DNA of 42,961 nucleotides from Oligoflexia bacterium (GCA_903845155.1 CAIMWN010000276.1:1-42961), one strand, 5' to 3'; counted from the stretch's first letter, positions 3,817 through 12,777 are shown. Translations and numbers: made by a program. The notes: generated from the sequence alone by a model not told the origin.

Positions 3817-4296
3817 ATGAAAAAAATGATTTTACCAATTTTAACTATTCTCTCTTTCCAAAGTGCTTACGCAAGCGCAGAAGTAAAAATTGAAAAGATG
3901 GTCACCAAGAGCGGTGATCGACTTTTGTCTGCTTCAGTCGTAGCCGAAGACGGCACCACAATCTACTCACATCCAGTCATCCACTTTGGGAGTGATTTGG
4001 CCACCCGAAACGCCATGTACGACCAAGCAGTTGCAAAACTCCCAGCCACTACGTGTACCGCGGTAGCCAATGATAAAGAACTTCAGGTAGATCCAGATGG
4101 AATCGCGAATAATATGGTTATCTGGAGTGATCAATGGATGTATTCAGGAAATAATAAAATTTATACATCCATTGGCTGTCAAACTCAACGCCTCAAGGCG
4201 GCAGTAAAAGAGGCTGAAGAAAAGGCTGCTGAAATCGCGAGTAAAAACGCTGCAAAAACTGAGAACACCCCACATCGTTTTGAGCACATTGAATAA
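3817..4296 (+). CDS. Secreted protein of unknown function with a C-terminal helix
   Basis: A 159-residue protein with a clear signal peptide (residues 1-20, MKKMILPILTILSFQSAYAS). The mature part is mixed and contains two cysteines (C80 and C121) that could form a disulfide in the periplasm. The C-terminus from about residue 125 is rich in Lys, Glu and Ala and should form a charged amphipathic helix or coiled coil. I recognise no family. It follows a likely promoter at 3732-3760 and precedes two lipoprotein genes on the same strand, so an envelope role is plausible but unproved. Confidence 0.75.
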   Translation: MKKMILPILTILSFQSAYASAEVKIEKMVTKSGDRLLSASVVAEDGTTIYSHPVIHFGSDLATRNAMYDQAVAKLPATTCTAVANDKELQVDPDGIANNMVIWSDQWMYSGNNKIYTSIGCQTQRLKAAVKEAEEKAAEIASKNAAKTENTPHRFEHIE

Positions 4297-4305
4297 ATAG
4301 AATTC

Positions 4306-4333
4306 TTGTAAATCTAAGCCGCTGGCGTAAACT
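4306..4333 (+). promoter_or_regulatory. Candidate promoter placed against the lipoprotein start at 4343
   Basis: TTGTAA (4306-4311), a 16-base spacer and TAAACT (4328-4333) are followed after nine bases by the ATG at 4343. Initiation about seven bases past the -10 box would leave almost no untranslated leader. No ribosome binding site is visible, which fits a leaderless transcript. Confidence 0.45.
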
Positions 4334-4342
4334 AATTTTAGT

Positions 4343-4687
4343 ATGACCAGTCATTTTTTTTTACGCAGCCGCTATCGTATGCTCTCTCTCATACTCTGCT
4401 TGATCGTGGCGCTCACCAGTTGTGCCACTTCAGACCACTACAATTATAGTAACGGCGATACACCGGCAAGCACCCCCGCTCCACCCAAACCTATACCGCC
4501 ACCTCCCCCGCCCAAAACTCCTGAACTCTTTTCGCGTTGTGGGATTTCAAATGGAGAAGGCCGCATCTTCTACGCCACTGATTCCTCTCAAGATATTGCC
4601 GAAGCAAAAGCACGCAGAGAATGCGAAATGTATTCGAGGCACTGCGTTCTTTTGGATTGCAACTCCACCACCGAGTTTGATGAATGA
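4343..4687 (+). CDS. Proline-rich lipoprotein with a small Cys-rich domain (DUF4189-like)
   Basis: Export signal with the lipobox LTSC, so the mature protein should be lipidated on the cysteine at about residue 27. Next come a Pro-rich tether (PKPIPPPPPPK) and a compact domain of about 45 residues beginning CGISNGEGRIFYATDSSQDI, with three further cysteines. The pattern of G-x-G, repeated Ala and paired cysteines resembles DUF4189 domains, a family of unknown function. The ATG at 4343 is favoured over the internal one at 4379 by the promoter spacing just upstream, although the resulting n-region is long. It probably displays a small disulfide-bonded domain at the envelope. Confidence 0.65.
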   Translation: MTSHFFLRSRYRMLSLILCLIVALTSCATSDHYNYSNGDTPASTPAPPKPIPPPPPPKTPELFSRCGISNGEGRIFYATDSSQDIAEAKARRECEMYSRHCVLLDCNSTTEFDE

Positions 4688-4863
4688 TTGATTGTCAAAT
4701 TTCTGATCTTCCGTCAGCTACCATACGGGTCGGCTAACATTCGCTACTGCGTTGACTCTATTTATCGCCATTTAATTACCAGGGGCATTTTCTATTTCGG
4801 CAGTGTTAGAATTAACTTCATTACCCGTTTCTATAAATTTTAACTCAGGAAGAGGATGAATCC

Positions 4864-5505
4864 ATGAACACTCGTAATTTTAATTTACTTCGCATTGTTT
4901 TAACCGTCGCTACCATTTCAATGATTACTTCTGCGTGCGGAAAGGCAACAACTACAGCAGCAACGCCAACTCTAGCAGGTAGAAACTCTGCAATTGGATC
5001 CGCGATGACTCACGCTTCAACCGCTTATTCCAATGCATCGTTTGCGGGCTACGATCAAAACATGCTCACCACCTATACAGGTTCTGCTAATTGCCCAGTG
5101 AGCGGAACGGTCAGTGTTACTTCAACCGTTACCCCACCTACTGCAACTGGAAGTAATCCGATTACGATTGATTTTACCGGTACCTCATTTACTGCCACCT
5201 ACAATACTTGCAAAGTTGCAGGTTCCGACGGAATTACTTACACCATCACGGGCACCTTAGTGCAGACCATGGGTGGTTCAATTGTCATCACCACTAGCGG
5301 AAGTAATTATACTGAAGTCGGTACCATGACCATGGCTGCTGTTTCTAGTAATTTAGCGCTCACTTCGTCTGATGGAAGTGTAAACCTAGGAAACGGGATC
5401 AATATCAGTGAATCCGTCACGATCAATGGAACCCAATCATCGATGTCGGTATCTGGTACCTTTACCGGAACAGAATTTGGAACTACCGTGAGCGGAAGTT
5501 TTTAA
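4864..5505 (+). CDS. Thr/Ser-rich lipoprotein of unknown function
   Basis: A 213-residue protein with a signal ending in a lipobox (ITSAC, cysteine at about residue 25). The mature chain is very rich in Thr, Ser and Gly with alternating short strands, such as SGTVSVTSTVTPPTATGSNP and ITISESV-type segments, suggesting an all-beta secreted domain. Two further cysteines flank the middle. A good ribosome binding site (AGGAAGAGGA) lies about ten bases upstream of the ATG. No family is recognised. It is the last of the small plus-strand genes before the ribosomal protein region. Confidence 0.75.
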   Translation: MNTRNFNLLRIVLTVATISMITSACGKATTTAATPTLAGRNSAIGSAMTHASTAYSNASFAGYDQNMLTTYTGSANCPVSGTVSVTSTVTPPTATGSNPITIDFTGTSFTATYNTCKVAGSDGITYTITGTLVQTMGGSIVITTSGSNYTEVGTMTMAAVSSNLALTSSDGSVNLGNGINISESVTINGTQSSMSVSGTFTGTEFGTTVSGSF

Positions 5506-5532: not shown

Positions 5533-5790
5533 TTATTTTTCGCTCAGCGGTTTAATCTTTTTCTGAGTAAGGGGAGATCCTGTGTTCATTAATAGCCGGA
5601 TTGCTTCAAAAACGGACTTAAATTTCTGATCATTTTTTTGCTCATATTAATGAAGCCGCTTAGCTAAGTCTTTATTGGTTTCCAGTATCTCCCGAAGTCT
5701 AACAAAAGTACGAACGACCGCGATACTTACTCTAACCCTCGCACTCATCCTTCCCCGAGTTTCTTGATGAGTTACAAGCAAGTATTTTTG
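5533..5790 (-). pseudogene. Remnant of an ORF6N-domain protein (C-terminal part)
   Basis: Reading the minus strand down from about 5730 gives VSIAVVRTFVRLREILETNK, then DLAKRLH, an in-frame TAA (5649-5647), then YEQKNDQKFKSVFEAIRLLM and a short basic tail ending at TAA 5535-5533. This is the characteristic C-terminal half of ORF6N/KilA-N-type proteins ('vnIaIMRtFVkLRemLa..keLa.KLeelE.kyd.qFk.VFeAIrqLM'), found on prophages and mobile elements. The N-terminal DNA-binding domain is missing and the sequence upstream of about 5740 is degraded. The frame is dead in two ways: the nonsense codon and the lost N-terminus. The 33-bp inverted repeat begins where the rest of the gene should be. Confidence 0.7.
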
Positions 5791-5793
5791 TAA

Positions 5794-5879
5794 GGTGAGA
5801 GGGGTTTAGAAAAGAATTGTATTTGCGACTTAAAGAGTCCCCAGGAGCAAATGCAATTTTTTTCTAAACCCCTCTCACC
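5794..5879 (+). repeat. Long inverted repeat: 33-bp arms, 20-base loop
   Basis: The left arm 5794-5826 (GGTGAGAGGGGTTTAGAAAA...) pairs along its whole length with the right arm 5847-5879. Thirty-one pairs are Watson-Crick and the other two (5814/5859 and 5819-5820 region, 5820/5853) are G-U in plus-strand RNA but would be A-C in minus-strand RNA. The loop can form a small inner stem (GACT 5827-5830 with AGTC 5836-5839). No U-tract follows, so it is not a simple terminator. It may be a miniature mobile element or a structured RNA. It lies between a dead ORF6N gene and the L31 terminator. Confidence 0.85.
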
Positions 5880-5906
5880 GTGCGAACGCAATTGCATGTA
5901 ACGCAT

Positions 5907-5941
5907 AAAAAAACCCGGGTAACGATTAGTCACCCGGGTTT
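5907..5941 (-). terminator. Intrinsic terminator of the L33-L31 operon
   Basis: Perfect 10-bp stem AAACCCGGGT (5911-5920) with ACCCGGGTTT (5932-5941) and an 11-base loop. On the minus strand it is followed by a run of T (plus-strand A run 5907-5913). It lies 44 bases downstream of the L31 stop codon. Confidence 0.9.
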
Positions 5942-6576: not shown

Positions 6577-8070
6577 TTACAAGAATGAGAACAACAGTTT
6601 AATATCTTCGTCGTCAAATCGGAGTCCACCGCCGAAAAGGGCAGATACCTTACCATTTTGCTGGCGTATTCCTTCAAGCCCAGCTGAGAGGTAAATTGCT
6701 GAATAGGGCTGAAACATCATATAGATACGTCCGTCCGGCTGAGCAGTCCAGCTGCCATCCAAAGTATTAGGTCTAAAATAGAGCTCACCCTTAGCTTGTA
6801 GCATTTCAGGTTGGCTAGCTGGTCCAAGATTCCACCCAGCCATCGCTCCCCCATCTCCATGAATGAGCCCCACCGCCACCTCAAGACGCTTCCCAAAGTA
6901 CTTTCCAATCATGGCAGAAAAGGCAAAGCCGATCCCCTTATCCACTTGAGTGGCACTTACGGTGTTTGAGGTGCCGTTCGATTGAGTAGTAGTGATCACT
7001 TGAGAAATTCTTCCGCGTGGATCATTCGTCATCCCAATAATATAAAAACGATCTGGTTTAGGAATAATTCTCACTTCAAAAAATGATCGAGCCGCCTGAA
7101 ATGCTGAAAGCTCTTGAAGCCCCAAGGTCACAATTAATCGCAACTCATTGGCCCGATTTAAAAGATGATTTAAATTCACCATCGCTTTTTTCAATTCTTC
7201 TGCATAAACAGGGTCATTTAAAATTTTACCGACCGAACCTTCACCTTGATTAATTCGGGTCATCTGATCTCTTAATTGTTCAATTGCATCTTCGAGTTTA
7301 ATCAAAGAACGTTGAGCGGTGACAGTAAGGCCGCCCTCTGGAGACAATACTTTTGATGCGACTTCCAGAGTCTTATTCAACTGTCTAATCGTTCCGCGAA
7401 TTTCATCAGGGTTGATGGAATCCTTTAAGTTTGTCGTTACGCTTTTCACTTCTTTCATGAGTCCGTTCAATTGACTCATTACTTGTTGCATGTCAGCCGA
7501 ACTTGCAGCGACCGGAATATCTTTTCCATTTTTTGAAACGGGTTGATCTTTGACATCTGTCCGCGCGGGCTGCCCTTGTGCATCTTCAGCTCTTGCCTCA
7601 TGAATGCCAACGATTGATCCAAAAGCATTTTCCAAAAACTGCATCAGGGATGAAGTGGTCGGGATGGGAGTCGCATCAGGTTTAATTTCTTCAAGGTTGT
7701 GTGAACCAATATACTTCACTGGCTTCAATTCAAGAAAACGGTCCCCTAAAAAACCTTCGCCACGCACATAAGCGCGAGTTTCTGAACCGATTTCTACCGG
7801 TGCGGTAATGCAAAGCTTGATTTTTACGCCCGACTCCACCAAGCCAATGTCATAAATATAGCCAATTTCAAGGCCTAAGGACTTCACTGGAGATTTTGGC
7901 TTTAAGCCAGTTGCATCTTCCACCGTCACTTGAGCTAGGTTACAGGGGCGCCACCAAAAGGGGCGATTGTTAACATAAACGGTAAGCACTCCGAGCAGCA
8001 ACAATCCGCCTGCAGTAAACAGACCCACTCTGATTTTTGTTTTTGCCGTCGCTTCATTCGCGTTACTCAT
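6577..8070 (-). CDS. MlaD-like MCE-domain lipid transport protein with a C-terminal barrel-like domain
   Basis: A 497-residue protein. Residues 12-32 form a single inner-membrane anchor (IRVGLFTAGGLLLLGVLTVY); about 44-120 are an MCE domain (DATGLKPKSPVKSLGLEIGY and GEGFLGDRFLELKP). A low-complexity stretch follows, then a long helical region (about 195-320) that should project into the periplasm. The final 170 residues begin FYIIGMTNDPRGRISQV and alternate short hydrophobic strands, ending in GGGLRFDDEDIKLLFSFL. This tail resembles barrel-like C-terminal domains of deltaproteobacterial MCE proteins and ends like an outer-membrane protein, so one chain could bridge both membranes (inference). 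It is last in the operon, 40 bases after MlaE. E. coli MlaD is only about 180 residues. Confidence 0.85.
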   Translation of the reverse strand: MSNANEATAKTKIRVGLFTAGGLLLLGVLTVYVNNRPFWWRPCNLAQVTVEDATGLKPKSPVKSLGLEIGYIYDIGLVESGVKIKLCITAPVEIGSETRAYVRGEGFLGDRFLELKPVKYIGSHNLEEIKPDATPIPTTSSLMQFLENAFGSIVGIHEARAEDAQGQPARTDVKDQPVSKNGKDIPVAASSADMQQVMSQLNGLMKEVKSVTTNLKDSINPDEIRGTIRQLNKTLEVASKVLSPEGGLTVTAQRSLIKLEDAIEQLRDQMTRINQGEGSVGKILNDPVYAEELKKAMVNLNHLLNRANELRLIVTLGLQELSAFQAARSFFEVRIIPKPDRFYIIGMTNDPRGRISQVITTTQSNGTSNTVSATQVDKGIGFAFSAMIGKYFGKRLEVAVGLIHGDGGAMAGWNLGPASQPEMLQAKGELYFRPNTLDGSWTAQPDGRIYMMFQPYSAIYLSAGLEGIRQQNGKVSALFGGGLRFDDEDIKLLFSFL

Positions 8071-8110
8071 AATCTCGTTTCCTTGTCTCTCTCAATTTAT
8101 CTTTTTAGTT

Positions 8111-8935
8111 TTATCTTAAAATCATTTGATTGGCGCGAATCGGAAGAACCATCGTCCAAAAATAATCTAATAACAAAATGGTCAAACAGGTAGCCACCAC
8201 TGTTGAGCGAGTTGAAAATCCAACTGCGCGAGCTCCTCCGTTAGCACGAAATCCATAAAAGCATCCAAGTAAAGAGAGCGCACATCCAAAAGTCACTCCT
8301 TTTACAAAGCAATGAAGCATGTCTACCCAATCCACCCACACTCGAAAGGTATTCCAAAAGACAGGGTAACTCAGGCCTAAAACACTGCATGCAATCACTG
8401 AAGCTGAAATGGTGGCGATCCCACCAAAGATCAATGCAAGAAGCGGCATCATCGCCGCTCCTGCCACTACTCGAGGAAGCACTAAATATTCGTGCGGGTT
8501 CACACCCATCACTTCGAGCGCATCAATTTGTTCTGAAACTCTCATACTCGCGATCTCTGCTCCGATCGCAGCCCCAGCCCGACCCGTCACCATGATCGCA
8601 CCGATCACGGGGGCCATTTCTCTAAAAATAGAAACACCTACCGTGCCACCCACCATTCCTTGAGCGCCAAATAATTCAAATGAAGTATAAAGTTGATATC
8701 CTAGAACGGCACCCATGAAGATTGCGGCCACGGTCAAGATGCCCATGCTGCTCACGCCGATAAACTCGCACTGATTGATGAATATATTTGAACGATACCA
8801 AAAGCGCGGCAAGGCTTGAAAGATCCTTACGGTAAAGAGCGTGAGTTCGCCCATCCAATCAATGCCATTACGTACGCCAGAAATCAAAGGTGAGAAAAAT
8901 GTCACAGTAGAATGATTATGATTGAAGTTACTCAC
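8111..8935 (-). CDS. mlaE: MlaE-family ABC lipid transporter permease
   Basis: A 274-residue inner-membrane permease with the family signature REMAPVIGAIMVTGRAGAAI (about 105-124) leading into GAEIASMRVSEQIDALEVMG (125-144). It has four or five hydrophobic segments. MlaE works as a dimer with an MlaF ATPase and an MlaD hexamer to move phospholipids between the inner and outer membranes. No mlaF lies in this operon, so the ATPase must be encoded elsewhere or the permease is used differently. The gene starts 12 bases after the RND exporter gene ends. The N-terminus is slightly longer than in E. coli MlaE. Confidence 0.9.
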   Translation of the reverse strand: MSNFNHNHSTVTFFSPLISGVRNGIDWMGELTLFTVRIFQALPRFWYRSNIFINQCEFIGVSSMGILTVAAIFMGAVLGYQLYTSFELFGAQGMVGGTVGVSIFREMAPVIGAIMVTGRAGAAIGAEIASMRVSEQIDALEVMGVNPHEYLVLPRVVAGAAMMPLLALIFGGIATISASVIACSVLGLSYPVFWNTFRVWVDWVDMLHCFVKGVTFGCALSLLGCFYGFRANGGARAVGFSTRSTVVATCLTILLLDYFWTMVLPIRANQMILR

Positions 8936-8947
8936 TATCGCAAAACA

Positions 8948-11428
8948 TTATTTGTGTCTTATTTGCGAAGTGATGATGAAACTTGGAACAATGAGGACCG
9001 CCACTAACACACAGGCAACTTCCCCTAAGACCGCTATTTTTCCAAAGCTCACAAAGGCCTGATTCCCAGCGATGAGGAGTGACCCCCAACCAATAACGGT
9101 AGTGAAACTGGCCAGAACGACAGCCCCCCCGGTGTGAAAAACGGCAGCTATAGTAGCGTCAATTTTTTGTTCCCCCTTCCGCCGAAGACACTCTTCGCGA
9201 TAGCGATGGAAAACATTCACTGCATAGTCGACCCCGATTCCAAAAGTGATGGGGAGCGCAATAAAATTCAAAAAATTAATCTTGAGACCAAATAGAATCA
9301 TTGCGCCTACCATCCATAGTACTCCCAATACGAGTGCCCCCAAGACGAGCGCGGAGAAGGGAATATTCCTAAAAATCAAAATAGTAAGCAAGAGTACGGC
9401 CAAGAATGAAACTAAAGTCGCAATCGGTCCTTCCTTGAGAATGGCCGAGAGCATATCGGCAGAAACCGGCAGTCTTCCAGCTACTGGGATCCTTACCCCA
9501 TACTCAGTACCCACTTCATCTACCACTTCCCTAATTTCCTTCACAAACTGAAGCAGAAAACTCCCCTGCCTAATGTCATCACTGAGCGGTGGCTCTACGA
9601 GTACCAGATGATCAAAGCTTCCGTTTCTTTCACGAAAACGATCAAGAAGCTTCACCGGCAAATCTTTAATCCCGAAAGGGGACAGTGTTTCTGGCGAGAC
9701 AAACTCATGCACCCGTTGCTTCTCTGAAGCCGAAAGATGCCACATAATGCGTGGACTGAGCGTTTCTTGAATGGATTTAAGAATCCTGATTTTTTCCCTT
9801 TGCTCGGGTGGGATAAAATCTTGAACTTGAATGACATTCTCGATCATGGAATGGGAACCTTGACTTGCTTTCAATTTCTTTAGATTCACCGCAATCTTGT
9901 TCGCCTGCACTTCATTTTGTGCAAGCACCGCAATGGGTGAACTATAGCGTTTTAAAATCAAATCCACATCACGCGTGAGAAAGCCTGAGCCCTGCTCCAT
10001 GGAGTGGCGATCGCGCAGCTTAGTCAAATCAGATTCAATGATTCCACCATTGAGGTGAGTAAGAGAAAACAGTGATACCAGCGTAATGACGATACCTAAA
10101 ATTGCCACTAATTTCGGAACATGCGTGAGAAGACCTTTTAAAATAGACGACCACAGCACCCGCGATTCAGCTCCACGATCTTGCCCTGCGAGGGAAACCT
10201 TACGATTAAAAAGTGAAAGAATAGCGGGGAAATAAGTGTAGGCACAAATCCAGCACGAAGCCATTCCAATAAACCCAATCATTCCAAATTGACTAAAGCC
10301 CCTAAAGCTCGTGAGCATAAGTGAGCCATAAGAAAGACCTGCTGCTAATGCCGCGGTCAGTGTGGGTAATAGGGTTTCCTTTAAGGAAATCTCGAGCGCC
10401 TCTACATGCTCACGACCCCCTGTCCGTCGTTCCTCTAGGTATCGGGCCAAAATCATGATGCCAAAATTAATTCCGTTGCCCATCACAATGGAGCCTAAAA
10501 ATGCTGAATTTGCATTCAGATACCCCACTGCAAAATAAGAGATGCCGAATGTAATCGCCGTACCCACCAGCAGGCTCAAAATCAAGGCGAGGGTAGCGAA
10601 CAAACTTCTAAAATAAATGAGGAGTACGACAGAGACCAACAGTGCTACGAGCACGGTAGAGAGCGCAAGATCGGCAAGTAACGCCGCTTGCTCTTCAATA
10701 ATATCCTGAACGTTACCCGAATATTTGACCTCAATATCTCCGGTATGAAGATCATTCACGATCTTCGCCACTGCATCTTTTAAACGATGTGCAGTGATAA
10801 TGGACGAGTTGGGCGCATAAACCAGAATCAAGCGATTGAGCCCATCTTCAGTGGCATATACACCACCCGGAAAATGTGAATAGGTGTCGGATTGTGAACG
10901 GTAACGCTTCTCTAAAGTTTTAAAATCAAAAACCGGTTCATTCGGTTTATTCTCAATTACCAGATTAAGGGGATTATAAATAAATTTCTCATAATCAATC
11001 CGCTTTTGAATGAAGTTCCTGACGTCACTGAGATCATGCGTGGATATAAAAAGGGATTTGCGGCGATTAAAGAAATCGAGTTCATCCGTAATCTTGTATT
11101 CCACTTGTGCAACCGTATCGGCCGGAAGCTTGTCGAGCTCTGTCACTAGGGCTTCTTGAAATTGTGATGAAATGTCCTTATTTTTTAGCGCAGAATTTTT
11201 TGAATAAATTAAAACGGCAAGATTATCCATCGATCGTAATCGAGTGGTGACCTCTTTTAAATCCACTACACTTCGTGCAGTGGTGGGAAGCAACTCTTCG
11301 ATATCTGGCTTTAAATTTGAATACAGTTTGACGACATAAAAACAAGCAACCACGGTGAGGAGAGTAAAGAAAGAACAGGCCTTAAACGCATGGTCATTGA
11401 AAAACTTTGCCCACCCCTTAAAACTCAT
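8948..11428 (-). CDS. RND/MMPL-family exporter (HpnN-like)
   Basis: An 826-residue polytopic protein with the two-fold RND layout: an N-terminal membrane helix (about 18-36), a periplasmic loop to about 250, five helices (about 255-425, including GSIVMGNGINFGIMILARYL), another single helix, a second large loop and five C-terminal helices (including FIALPITFGIGVDYAVNVFH). The length and the GDIEVKYSGN and TLPTLTAALAAG-type blocks resemble MMPL proteins such as HpnN, which move hopanoids or other lipids. No periplasmic adaptor gene is nearby. It sits between a phospholipid-head-group synthase and the Mla genes with 9- and 12-base gaps, which points to lipid transport rather than drug efflux. 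The substrate is not known. Confidence 0.85.
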   Translation of the reverse strand: MSFKGWAKFFNDHAFKACSFFTLLTVVACFYVVKLYSNLKPDIEELLPTTARSVVDLKEVTTRLRSMDNLAVLIYSKNSALKNKDISSQFQEALVTELDKLPADTVAQVEYKITDELDFFNRRKSLFISTHDLSDVRNFIQKRIDYEKFIYNPLNLVIENKPNEPVFDFKTLEKRYRSQSDTYSHFPGGVYATEDGLNRLILVYAPNSSIITAHRLKDAVAKIVNDLHTGDIEVKYSGNVQDIIEEQAALLADLALSTVLVALLVSVVLLIYFRSLFATLALILSLLVGTAITFGISYFAVGYLNANSAFLGSIVMGNGINFGIMILARYLEERRTGGREHVEALEISLKETLLPTLTAALAAGLSYGSLMLTSFRGFSQFGMIGFIGMASCWICAYTYFPAILSLFNRKVSLAGQDRGAESRVLWSSILKGLLTHVPKLVAILGIVITLVSLFSLTHLNGGIIESDLTKLRDRHSMEQGSGFLTRDVDLILKRYSSPIAVLAQNEVQANKIAVNLKKLKASQGSHSMIENVIQVQDFIPPEQREKIRILKSIQETLSPRIMWHLSASEKQRVHEFVSPETLSPFGIKDLPVKLLDRFRERNGSFDHLVLVEPPLSDDIRQGSFLLQFVKEIREVVDEVGTEYGVRIPVAGRLPVSADMLSAILKEGPIATLVSFLAVLLLTILIFRNIPFSALVLGALVLGVLWMVGAMILFGLKINFLNFIALPITFGIGVDYAVNVFHRYREECLRRKGEQKIDATIAAVFHTGGAVVLASFTTVIGWGSLLIAGNQAFVSFGKIAVLGEVACVLVAVLIVPSFIITSQIRHK

Positions 11429-11437
11429 TTCTCACGC

Positions 11438-12397
11438 TCATTCCTTATGAACGCCATGAAGAAAGCGCTGAAGGTAATAAAGACCAATGATGAGGGAAAG
11501 AAGTGCGTAGAAAAATGCGGCTGAAAAGGCCACGAGTACGGGATGAACGAAAGGGAAAAAGTCATTGTGAAAAACACTAAGCAGCAAGAGACAAATGCTG
11601 AGCACTGATAAAATATTACCATCACCCACATATGCGGTTGCTTTGACTGCTTGCCTAAACTCACCCTTACGCGTGATGCATGCAAGCTCATTCATCAACG
11701 CCGCCTCATTCACTGCTTTTGCTTCCCAATCACTTGAGTCTTTTCGCTTCAGTACTTTTGCGTACCATTCTACGGATACAATACGAATCGTGACAGAGTC
11801 CAACCAAAACCCAAAACGATCAATGAGTCCGCCTTGCCCATTTTTTAAATTCATATAGTGCTCACGCCAACCGAGCTCTACCAGGTCCACTTCCTTGCAG
11901 ATGATAGACCCGAGTTTTCTTTTCATCAGTTGATAGACCGTGCCACTATTTGCGGTAACGAACGCAAAAATAAAAACACCGAGCGTAATTAAGGCGGCAT
12001 TATAGTTTCGGTAATCTTGTATTAACCTGAGCGCCCCAGCGAGCATGAGTGAATTAAATGTAATGGCGTCCCCGATCGTATCGAGAGTTCTTCCCATGGC
12101 ACTGGTTTGATTTTTCGCGCGGGCGAGTAGCCCATCCAAACAATCTAAGATCGTTCTCACTTCGTAAGCGAGTACTGCCAATAGGTATTGTTCATGGTAA
12201 ATCATAAATGCGGCCGACACTCCTACCAAAGTATGAGCAACGGTAATTTCATTCGCAGTCACAGGTACCGTAACTAACTTTTTGCACAAGTATGCAGCAA
12301 CGCGAAGTCGATAAACTCGATTGAGTGGATCGATTAAGGATTGAGTGAGTTTCAGGGAAAGCGCAGGTGTTTGACGAACCTGGCTGATGTTTGCCAT
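11438..12397 (-). CDS. CDP-alcohol phosphatidyltransferase family protein
   Basis: A 319-residue membrane enzyme with the complete CDP-alcohol phosphotransferase motif D-x2-D-G-x2-A-R-x8-G-x3-D-x3-D: D85, D88, G89, A92, R93, G102, D106 and D110 are all present. The aspartates hold the metal ions that attack CDP-diacylglycerol or a related CDP-alcohol. About six hydrophobic segments are visible. The middle insert (about 165-230, LGSIICKEVDLVELGWREHY and following) is longer than in PgsA or PssA and is charged. The product lipid is unknown. It is first in the four-gene lipid operon and divergent from the DUF971 gene. Phosphatidylglycerol- or inositol-type chemistry are both possible. Confidence 0.88.
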   Translation of the reverse strand: MANISQVRQTPALSLKLTQSLIDPLNRVYRLRVAAYLCKKLVTVPVTANEITVAHTLVGVSAAFMIYHEQYLLAVLAYEVRTILDCLDGLLARAKNQTSAMGRTLDTIGDAITFNSLMLAGALRLIQDYRNYNAALITLGVFIFAFVTANSGTVYQLMKRKLGSIICKEVDLVELGWREHYMNLKNGQGGLIDRFGFWLDSVTIRIVSVEWYAKVLKRKDSSDWEAKAVNEAALMNELACITRKGEFRQAVKATAYVGDGNILSVLSICLLLLSVFHNDFFPFVHPVLVAFSAAFFYALLSLIIGLYYLQRFLHGVHKE

Positions 12398-12465
12398 ACT
12401 TTATTTTAAGGTGAGTTACTCATTTTTGGGAAGAAAAATCTACCGTGAGCATGTTAAGGTGCTTC

Positions 12466-12777
12466 ATGCCCAATTTGATTCAAGTGAAACCAGTTAATCC
12501 AACCGCCTTAGCTCTTAATTTTGAAAACGGGGAGTCTTTTGTACTTTCGTACCTTGACCTCCGCTTTGCCTGCCCCTGCGCAAGCTGTGTGGACGAAATC
12601 ACGGGCCAAAGAACCCTGAAACGCGAAAGCATCAAAGCCGACATTAAACCCAATCGTGTAGACCCAGTAGGCCGATATGGGATCCAAATCGAGTGGAGCG
12701 ACGGACACCGTACCGGTATGTACCATTTTGATCGCTTGTATGAAATTGCTTCCGGCAAGACGTTAGAACAGCAATAA
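12466..12777 (+). CDS. DUF971 family protein
   Basis: A small protein whose core contains LDLRFACPCASCVDEITGQR, then a long middle block and GYHFD-like ending (GMYHFDRLYEIASG). This is the DUF971 fold, also the N-terminal domain of gamma-butyrobetaine hydroxylases and a partner of Mrp/ApbC-type iron-sulfur scaffold proteins. The CPC-x2-C cysteines suggest metal or iron-sulfur handling, but its role is not established. The start at 12466 (MPNLIQ) is preferred over 12445 because AAGGTG lies at the right distance upstream. It probably shares its intergenic region with the divergent lipid operon. Confidence 0.8.
   Translation: MPNLIQVKPVNPTALALNFENGESFVLSYLDLRFACPCASCVDEITGQRTLKRESIKADIKPNRVDPVGRYGIQIEWSDGHRTGMYHFDRLYEIASGKTLEQQ

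Follow-up and report, generated by a model that had tools for sequence, protein, structure and literature searches.

What lipid is handled by an operon that joins a head-group enzyme to two kinds of lipid transporter, and how is the transport energised if no ATPase gene accompanies them? The question arises from a window of 42,961 nucleotides (the whole stretch of DNA analysed; GCA_903845155.1, CAIMWN010000276.1:1-42961) belonging to a metagenome-assembled genome of an Oligoflexia bacterium, labelled here G000. The minus strand of the window carries four consecutive genes: (i) a CDP-alcohol phosphatidyltransferase, PT (12397-11438, 319 aa; Pfam CDP-OH_P_transf, 4e-13), (ii) an HpnN-like RND transporter (11428-8948, 826 aa; Pfam MMPL, 1.2e-38), (iii) an MlaE permease of a clade termed orphan below (8935-8111, 274 aa, GTG start; Pfam MlaE, PF02405, 2e-67), and (iv) an MlaD-like MCE protein (8070-6577, 497 aa; Pfam MlaD, PF02470, 3.5e-11). 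All four Pfam matches exceed the curated cut-offs. The coordinates of the open reading frames (ORFs) reproduce exactly the intergenic gaps of 9, 12 and 40 bases given in a preliminary description of the locus, and the absence of MlaF from the operon, also noted there, is confirmed: no MlaF was found in the operon or its neighbourhood by ORF and domain reading of the window and of related genomes.

The explanation that we favour overall, and hold to be fairly probable, is that the operon encodes an MCE lipid transporter for a lipid whose head group is made by PT, and that its MlaF acts in trans, left behind by an operon split. A more specific proposal is put forward tentatively: the transporter may be a transenvelope exporter dedicated to one lipid class, with its cargo set by exchangeable head-group enzymes and with MlaF encoded apart since the split. 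The gene content, gene order, split and motifs on which both rest were read from the sequences, and the protein fold was predicted from them.

The compared genomes of the order (n = 55, G000-G054) and their families (f1-f6) bear labels coined for the present analysis; f1 is the GTDB family of the window, in Bdellovibrionota and related to predatory bacteria, and includes 13 genomes, namely 12 from the genus of the window and the sister-genus genome G012. Comparison of gene neighbourhoods, a check suggested in the preliminary description, demonstrated that the order PT-(RND)-MlaE-MCE-rpmE is kept in all 13 f1 genomes, so the arrangement is not unique to the source genome, as that description had allowed it might be. 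The core PT-MlaE-MCE is thus conserved across the family, whereas an RND gene intervenes between PT and MlaE in just four f1 genomes (G000, G006, G008, and G012). In the genus, PT immediately precedes MlaE or RND-MlaE in 12 of 12 genomes, and in G012 it is one gene ahead of RND-MlaE. Gaps within the operon in the genus are 10-85 bases or overlaps nearly throughout, with 201 bases in one genome. PT of this kind is restricted to f1. Orphan-clade MlaE (E < 1e-87) is found once per genome in 41 of the 55 genomes; in 26 neighbourhoods inspected beyond f1, the MlaE-MCE pair never has an adjoining MlaF, and in 16 of them it is divergent from an adjoining RND gene. Judged by these sequence comparisons, the MlaE-MCE pair is far older than its association with PT.

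A search for mlaF throughout the source genome, proposed in the preliminary description, revealed two MlaE-MlaF-MCE sets, on contigs C282 and C97. The same search in nine genomes detected a further MlaF-like ATPase with neither MlaE nor MCE alongside, called here solo MlaF. Its profile reaches 350 bits or more in 50 of the 55 genomes of the order, versus at most 265 bits for the next-best ATPases. Of the 41 genomes with an orphan pair, 40 have solo MlaF by this profile, the source genome being the sole exception. The co-occurrence of solo MlaF and the orphan pair gives a Fisher p of 0.012, or 0.003 if the truncated copy of the source genome is counted, both uncorrected for relatedness. The usual solo-MlaF locus consists of nadB, a protein weakly matching a Cache domain, alanine racemase (alr), MlaF, a small GYF-like protein (a likeness judged by eye), and an LptE-like protein. 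In the source genome, the nadB/alr locus is located on contig C110, where an ATG and 45 codons past alr (MNEHESKFAIELKGVHKYFRGGKDHILKGVNIQFERGKLTYILGP) reach the contig end and the full copy is cut off. The best match of this start is solo MlaF, with 29 of 45 residues identical to that of G015, versus 13 of 38 for the other MlaFs of the genome. Since solo MlaF occupies the alr/nadB locus and its start is preserved on C110, MlaF is present, and it is the operon rather than the system that lacks it. The earlier idea of a system without MlaF consequently holds for the operon only, mlaF having stayed at the ancestral locus; a true loss of MlaF is ruled out by the profile matches together with the C110 start.

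The ancestral arrangement can be recognized in relatives. In two f6 genomes (G051 and G052), alr-MlaE-MlaF-MCE is intact at the same nadB locus, and a third (G053) has MlaE-MlaF-MCE on a contig cut upstream of MlaE; the alr-MlaE-MlaF-MCE set also occurs across Bdellovibrionales, Bacteriovoracaceae, and in one Oligoflexia metagenome-assembled genome. Solo MlaF and the operon MlaF of f6 form one clade (SH-aLRT 98) inside a Bdellovibrionota clade (98). Orphan MlaE is a single clade (support 100), and a tree forcing it together with the operon MlaE of Bdellovibrionota outscored the free quick tree; the approximately unbiased test did not reject it (p-AU 0.898), which is permission for this grouping rather than proof of it. 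The MCE proteins provide stronger evidence for relocation than the MlaE tree: an hhalign comparison (probability 100, E 1.5e-60) shows the orphan and operon forms to be homologous along 421 columns, which take in the C-terminal barrel as well as a terminal DDEDIKLLF-like motif. The simplest reading of these comparisons is that MlaE and MCE relocated together and mlaF stayed beside alr. Acquisition of the orphan pair from elsewhere is not favoured, given the full-length MCE homology and the MlaE grouping that was not rejected; MlaE alone may have a foreign origin.

Does the separated permease still work with an ATPase? The MlaE of the window passes the TIGR00056 cut-off (214.5 bits versus 212.2) and fails the strict MlaE_1 model (195.3 bits versus 315), and it can be aligned along its length with solved MlaE. 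It has the permease domain, an MCE partner, and an MlaF encoded in the genome; of the sequence features used to recognize the family, the one missing is an MlaF in the same operon. The coupling-helix stretch around EQIDALEVM (residues 126-156 of the protein) is the best conserved part of orphan MlaE (0.85) and retains the consensus of operon MlaE, and the Walker A, signature, Walker B, and H-loop motifs are all kept in solo MlaF. The conserved coupling stretch and the intact ATPase motifs together favour the view that MlaE is still coupled to ATP hydrolysis in trans, and the physical partner of orphan MlaE would then be solo MlaF.

Two other ways of energising the pair were weighed. Its ATPase could be an MlaF of the paralogous operons on C282 or C97, or several sets could share one MlaF as with MceG; MlaE-MlaF-MCE sets do coexist in the genome, and a single ATPase for Mce1 and Mce4 has been documented (PMC9947336). 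We consider this unlikely in view of the retention of solo MlaF, a descendant of the ancestral operon, in nearly all genomes with the pair and, as a partial gene, in the source genome itself. Far less credible is a passive conduit free of ATPase, with RND giving proton-driven transport. Such a conduit would agree with an operon devoid of MlaF and with RND adjoining the pair in many f5 genomes and in four of the 13 f1 genomes, yet the coupling-helix stretch is the most conserved part of MlaE, solo MlaF is retained, and nine of the 13 f1 operons are without RND. Among the MlaF loci of the order, that on C97 (L034, G000:C97:50-4845) has a tandem arrangement, MlaF-MlaF-MlaE-MlaE-MCE followed by a signal peptidase, which recalls actinobacterial YrbEA/YrbEB. 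Outside the order, seven loci of Nautiliaceae and Aquificota (L040, L041, L050, L055, L059, L068, and L088) have no MlaF among the ORFs near MlaE, and given these loci, unlinked MlaF may be more widespread.

The MCE protein was modelled with AlphaFold2 on 33 orthologues, replacing a model on 11 sequences that was poor outside the barrel. The predicted monomer starts with a transmembrane helix (residues 9-33) and an MCE domain (44-120, pLDDT of about 90), continues with helices at 194-308, and ends in a 12-stranded C-terminal beta-barrel (311-486, block-mean pLDDT mostly 76-96). A fold search with the 33-sequence model matched MlaD and mycobacterial Mce proteins; with the 11-sequence model, in which the barrel alone is confident, it matched outer-membrane barrels such as Ail, OprF, PcoB, and FapF. 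We predict, therefore, a transenvelope protein of the type of MlaD from Veillonella, and because its barrel is of a predicted outer-membrane kind, delivery of lipid to the outer membrane by this module is plausible.

The RND protein matches the HpnN family TIGR03480 (E 2.9e-68), which agrees with its earlier description as HpnN-like, but 230.7 bits are far under the equivalog cut-off of 751.85, as are 137.7 bits versus 1100 for a second equivalog. The RND tree places a duplication at the root of f1; of the two copies, one accompanies PT-MlaE and the other is located elsewhere, sometimes beside INO1. The tree and the neighbourhoods suggest that RND is ancestral to the locus yet dispensable in the operon. 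In the source genome, an RND gene lies near a head-group enzyme twice: in the operon and on contig C234 (L330:2784-10199), where some 3 kb separate a second copy from INO1 and a PIPS-like PT.

The PT of the window has an intact D-x2-D-G-x2-A-R-x8-G-x3-D-x3-D motif (residues 85-110, DCLDGLLARAKNQTSAMGRTLDTIGD). The source genome separately encodes PgsA and PssA, both over their cut-offs, and an INO1-linked PIPS-like PT; operon PT as the phosphatidylserine or phosphatidylglycerol synthase of the genome is ruled out by these separate enzymes. As the near-complete relatives G003 and G011 have the operon PT and no INO1, the set of separate enzymes together with these relatives suggests that the product of the window PT is probably something other than phosphatidylserine, phosphatidylglycerol, or an inositol lipid.

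Other lineages of the order possess other head-group genes at this locus. In G012 (C11, L032:6246-16863), a phosphonate gene set forms one run upstream of RND-MlaE-MCE and includes (i) a fusion of phosphoenolpyruvate (PEP) mutase and nucleotidyltransferase (TIGR02320, 390 bits versus a cut-off of 319.55; motif EDKLFPKTNS), (ii) a phosphonopyruvate decarboxylase, Ppd (TIGR03297, over the cut-off), (iii) an aminoethylphosphonate (AEP) transaminase, AEPT, at 350 bits just under the cut-off of 360.8, (iv) a PT with a fused DUF2062, and (v) another nucleotidyltransferase. This set plausibly constitutes an aminoethylphosphonolipid pathway. No PEP mutase of comparable score was found in the genus of the window, the best match in the source genome reaching 55 bits over 142 positions versus 217 bits in G012; synthesis of aminoethylphosphonolipids in this genus via a PEP mutase of its own is hence unsupported. 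In the sister family f5, INO1 (inositol-phosphate synthase) is located within 5 kb of MlaE in five genomes (G026, G031, G032, G045, and G046), and four others have it no farther than about 17 kb away. A PIPS-like PT adjoins INO1 in several genomes, and the GBBH-like gene seen beside PT in the window recurs near the f5 locus. By gene content, then, the association of a head-group enzyme with the lipid transporter is repeated across the lineage, with three different sets at the same locus. The pathway of lipid synthesis and transport envisaged in the preliminary description stands in this part, and the RND exporter is its dispensable component. The presence of different head-group enzymes at one site suggests that the cargo of the module is whatever special lipid a given cell produces.

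Cargo specificity nevertheless has a serious competitor. The MlaE-MCE pair may be a generic phospholipid bridge, with PT, INO1, and phosphonate genes co-located through shared envelope regulation; we rate this as possible and short of an even chance. It is consistent with the occurrence of the pair throughout the order, in many genomes with varied or no head-group genes alongside, with a degenerate PT beside a retained pair in G004, and with the barrel type of MCE known from general phospholipid trafficking (PMC10665443). The bridge does not by itself account for the recurrence of three different head-group gene sets at one locus or for the position of PT ahead of MlaE or RND-MlaE in f1. A second alternative concerns the enzyme: PT may be an inositol-phosphate transferase, i.e., a phosphatidylinositol-phosphate synthase. 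Such synthases are its closest PDB entries, and inositol-phosphate synthases are its top NCBIfam matches; this assignment seems improbable to us because all the NCBIfam matches are under the cut-off, the source genome has its own INO1-linked PIPS-like PT, and G003 and G011 are devoid of INO1.

Several observations weigh against the favoured transporter with PT as its head-group enzyme and MlaF in trans. The window PT scores under the cut-off of every named NCBIfam head-group family (PssA, PgsA, and PIPS), and so fits no functionally named family. Among ten PT sequences checked, that of G004 alone (L030:7056-8021) has lost the motif, with DCLDG changed to SALGS and the third Asp to Glu, and is likely a pseudoenzyme; as the operon is otherwise intact, PT activity is not always needed. 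RND is absent from the operon in most f1 genomes, as counted above. The stem of the orphan MlaE clade is long, and the topology test does no more than permit a common group with operon MlaE. Seven genomes (G014, G016, G017, G021, G037, G040, and G044) have solo MlaF and no detected orphan MlaE or intact operon, possibly owing to incomplete assemblies. Another potential ATPase for the orphan pair is the MlaF on C282 or that on C97.

With these points considered, the favoured mechanism of an MCE transporter with MlaF in trans can be formulated as follows. The operon would provide the permease and the envelope-spanning parts of an ATP-driven MCE transporter, plus a lineage-specific head-group enzyme. 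In the inner membrane, PT, whose motif is intact, would convert a CDP-activated precursor to a minor phospholipid. An MlaE dimer would exchange this lipid with an MCE ring, the dimer and a hexameric ring being assumed from the family, as the prediction is for a monomer. The helical stalk of MCE is predicted to span the periplasm and its C-terminal barrel to be anchored in the outer membrane. ATP would be hydrolyzed in trans by the MlaF encoded beside alr at nadB, the former site of MlaE and MCE, a placement derived from synteny and trees. The HpnN-like RND, where retained, probably helps to export the same lipid. Transport would probably be directed from the inner to the outer membrane, and the head-group enzyme varies by lineage (inositol, PT product, or aminoethylphosphonate). 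We infer here the pairing of MlaE with solo MlaF, the cargo, the direction, and the role of RND.

Comparison with known systems separates the familiar components from the new ones. MlaFEDB of E. coli and Acinetobacter has the same kind of permease and an MlaD matched by the MCE domain, whereas in the window MlaF is unlinked, the operon includes no further Mla gene, and MCE bears a stalk and a barrel. MlaD of Veillonella parvula MlaEFD likewise combines a transmembrane helix, an MCE domain, a long helical part, and a C-terminal outer-membrane barrel, and its MCE part localises to the inner membrane and its barrel part to the outer membrane (PMC10665443); it differs by a 10-stranded barrel, versus 12 predicted strands here, and by MlaF in the operon, whereas our system has MlaF split off and a head-group enzyme added. 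In mycobacterial Mce1 and Mce4, permease and MCE genes are likewise in operons and the ATPase MceG acts in trans (PMC9947336), but MceG is common to two importers, whereas solo MlaF and its presumed partners derive from one ancestral operon. The RND protein belongs to the subfamily of the hopanoid transporter HpnN (TIGR03480), from which the scores given above set it apart. Phosphonolipid clusters with Ppm/PntC share with G012 the PEP mutase-nucleotidyltransferase fusion, Ppd, and AEPT; formation of CMP-AEP by related nucleotidyltransferases is documented, and no linked transporter is described, in the available part of that report (PMC6697681). The genome of the window differs in having no comparable PEP mutase. 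Mpc of Brucella, a chimeric Mla-Pqi system, is proposed to bridge both membranes and has a vesicle lipid phenotype; it differs in composition and lineage, and the available part of the report mentions no head-group enzyme (PMC12436622). In a literature search covering few subscription papers, we found no publication joining MlaE, RND, MCE, and phosphatidyltransferase in one operon. The trans ATPase, the barrel-bearing MlaD, and the RND type are thus already known; three things appear to be new: this combination of genes, an operon split that left mlaF in its original place, and a transporter locus at which one head-group enzyme is exchanged for another.

The neighbours of the operon are outside the proposed mechanism. 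Downstream of MCE is rpmE (L31; 5985-6236, minus strand), and divergent from PT is a GBBH-like_N gene (12445-12777, plus strand), by which the locus is recognizable in sister families too. Small ORFs at 3817-5505 resemble secreted proteins or lipoproteins, none over a Pfam cut-off. An inverted repeat at 5743-5930, with 84-nt arms that are 80% complementary and a 20-nt spacer, lies between the ORF at 4864-5505 and rpmE. An Rfam search of the window gave no match, and scans of the window for promoters and terminators found sites no commoner than in shuffled sequences.

For surveys of MCE transporters, the split has a practical consequence: those that look for MlaF by synteny only, e.g., within five genes (PMC10665443), will score such systems as ATPase-less. 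Which lipids MCE transporters natively carry, and in which direction, is a matter of debate. Different head-group enzymes beside one orthologous transporter mean that its cargo can be guessed from the neighbouring gene, and that the guess is testable by comparing lineages.

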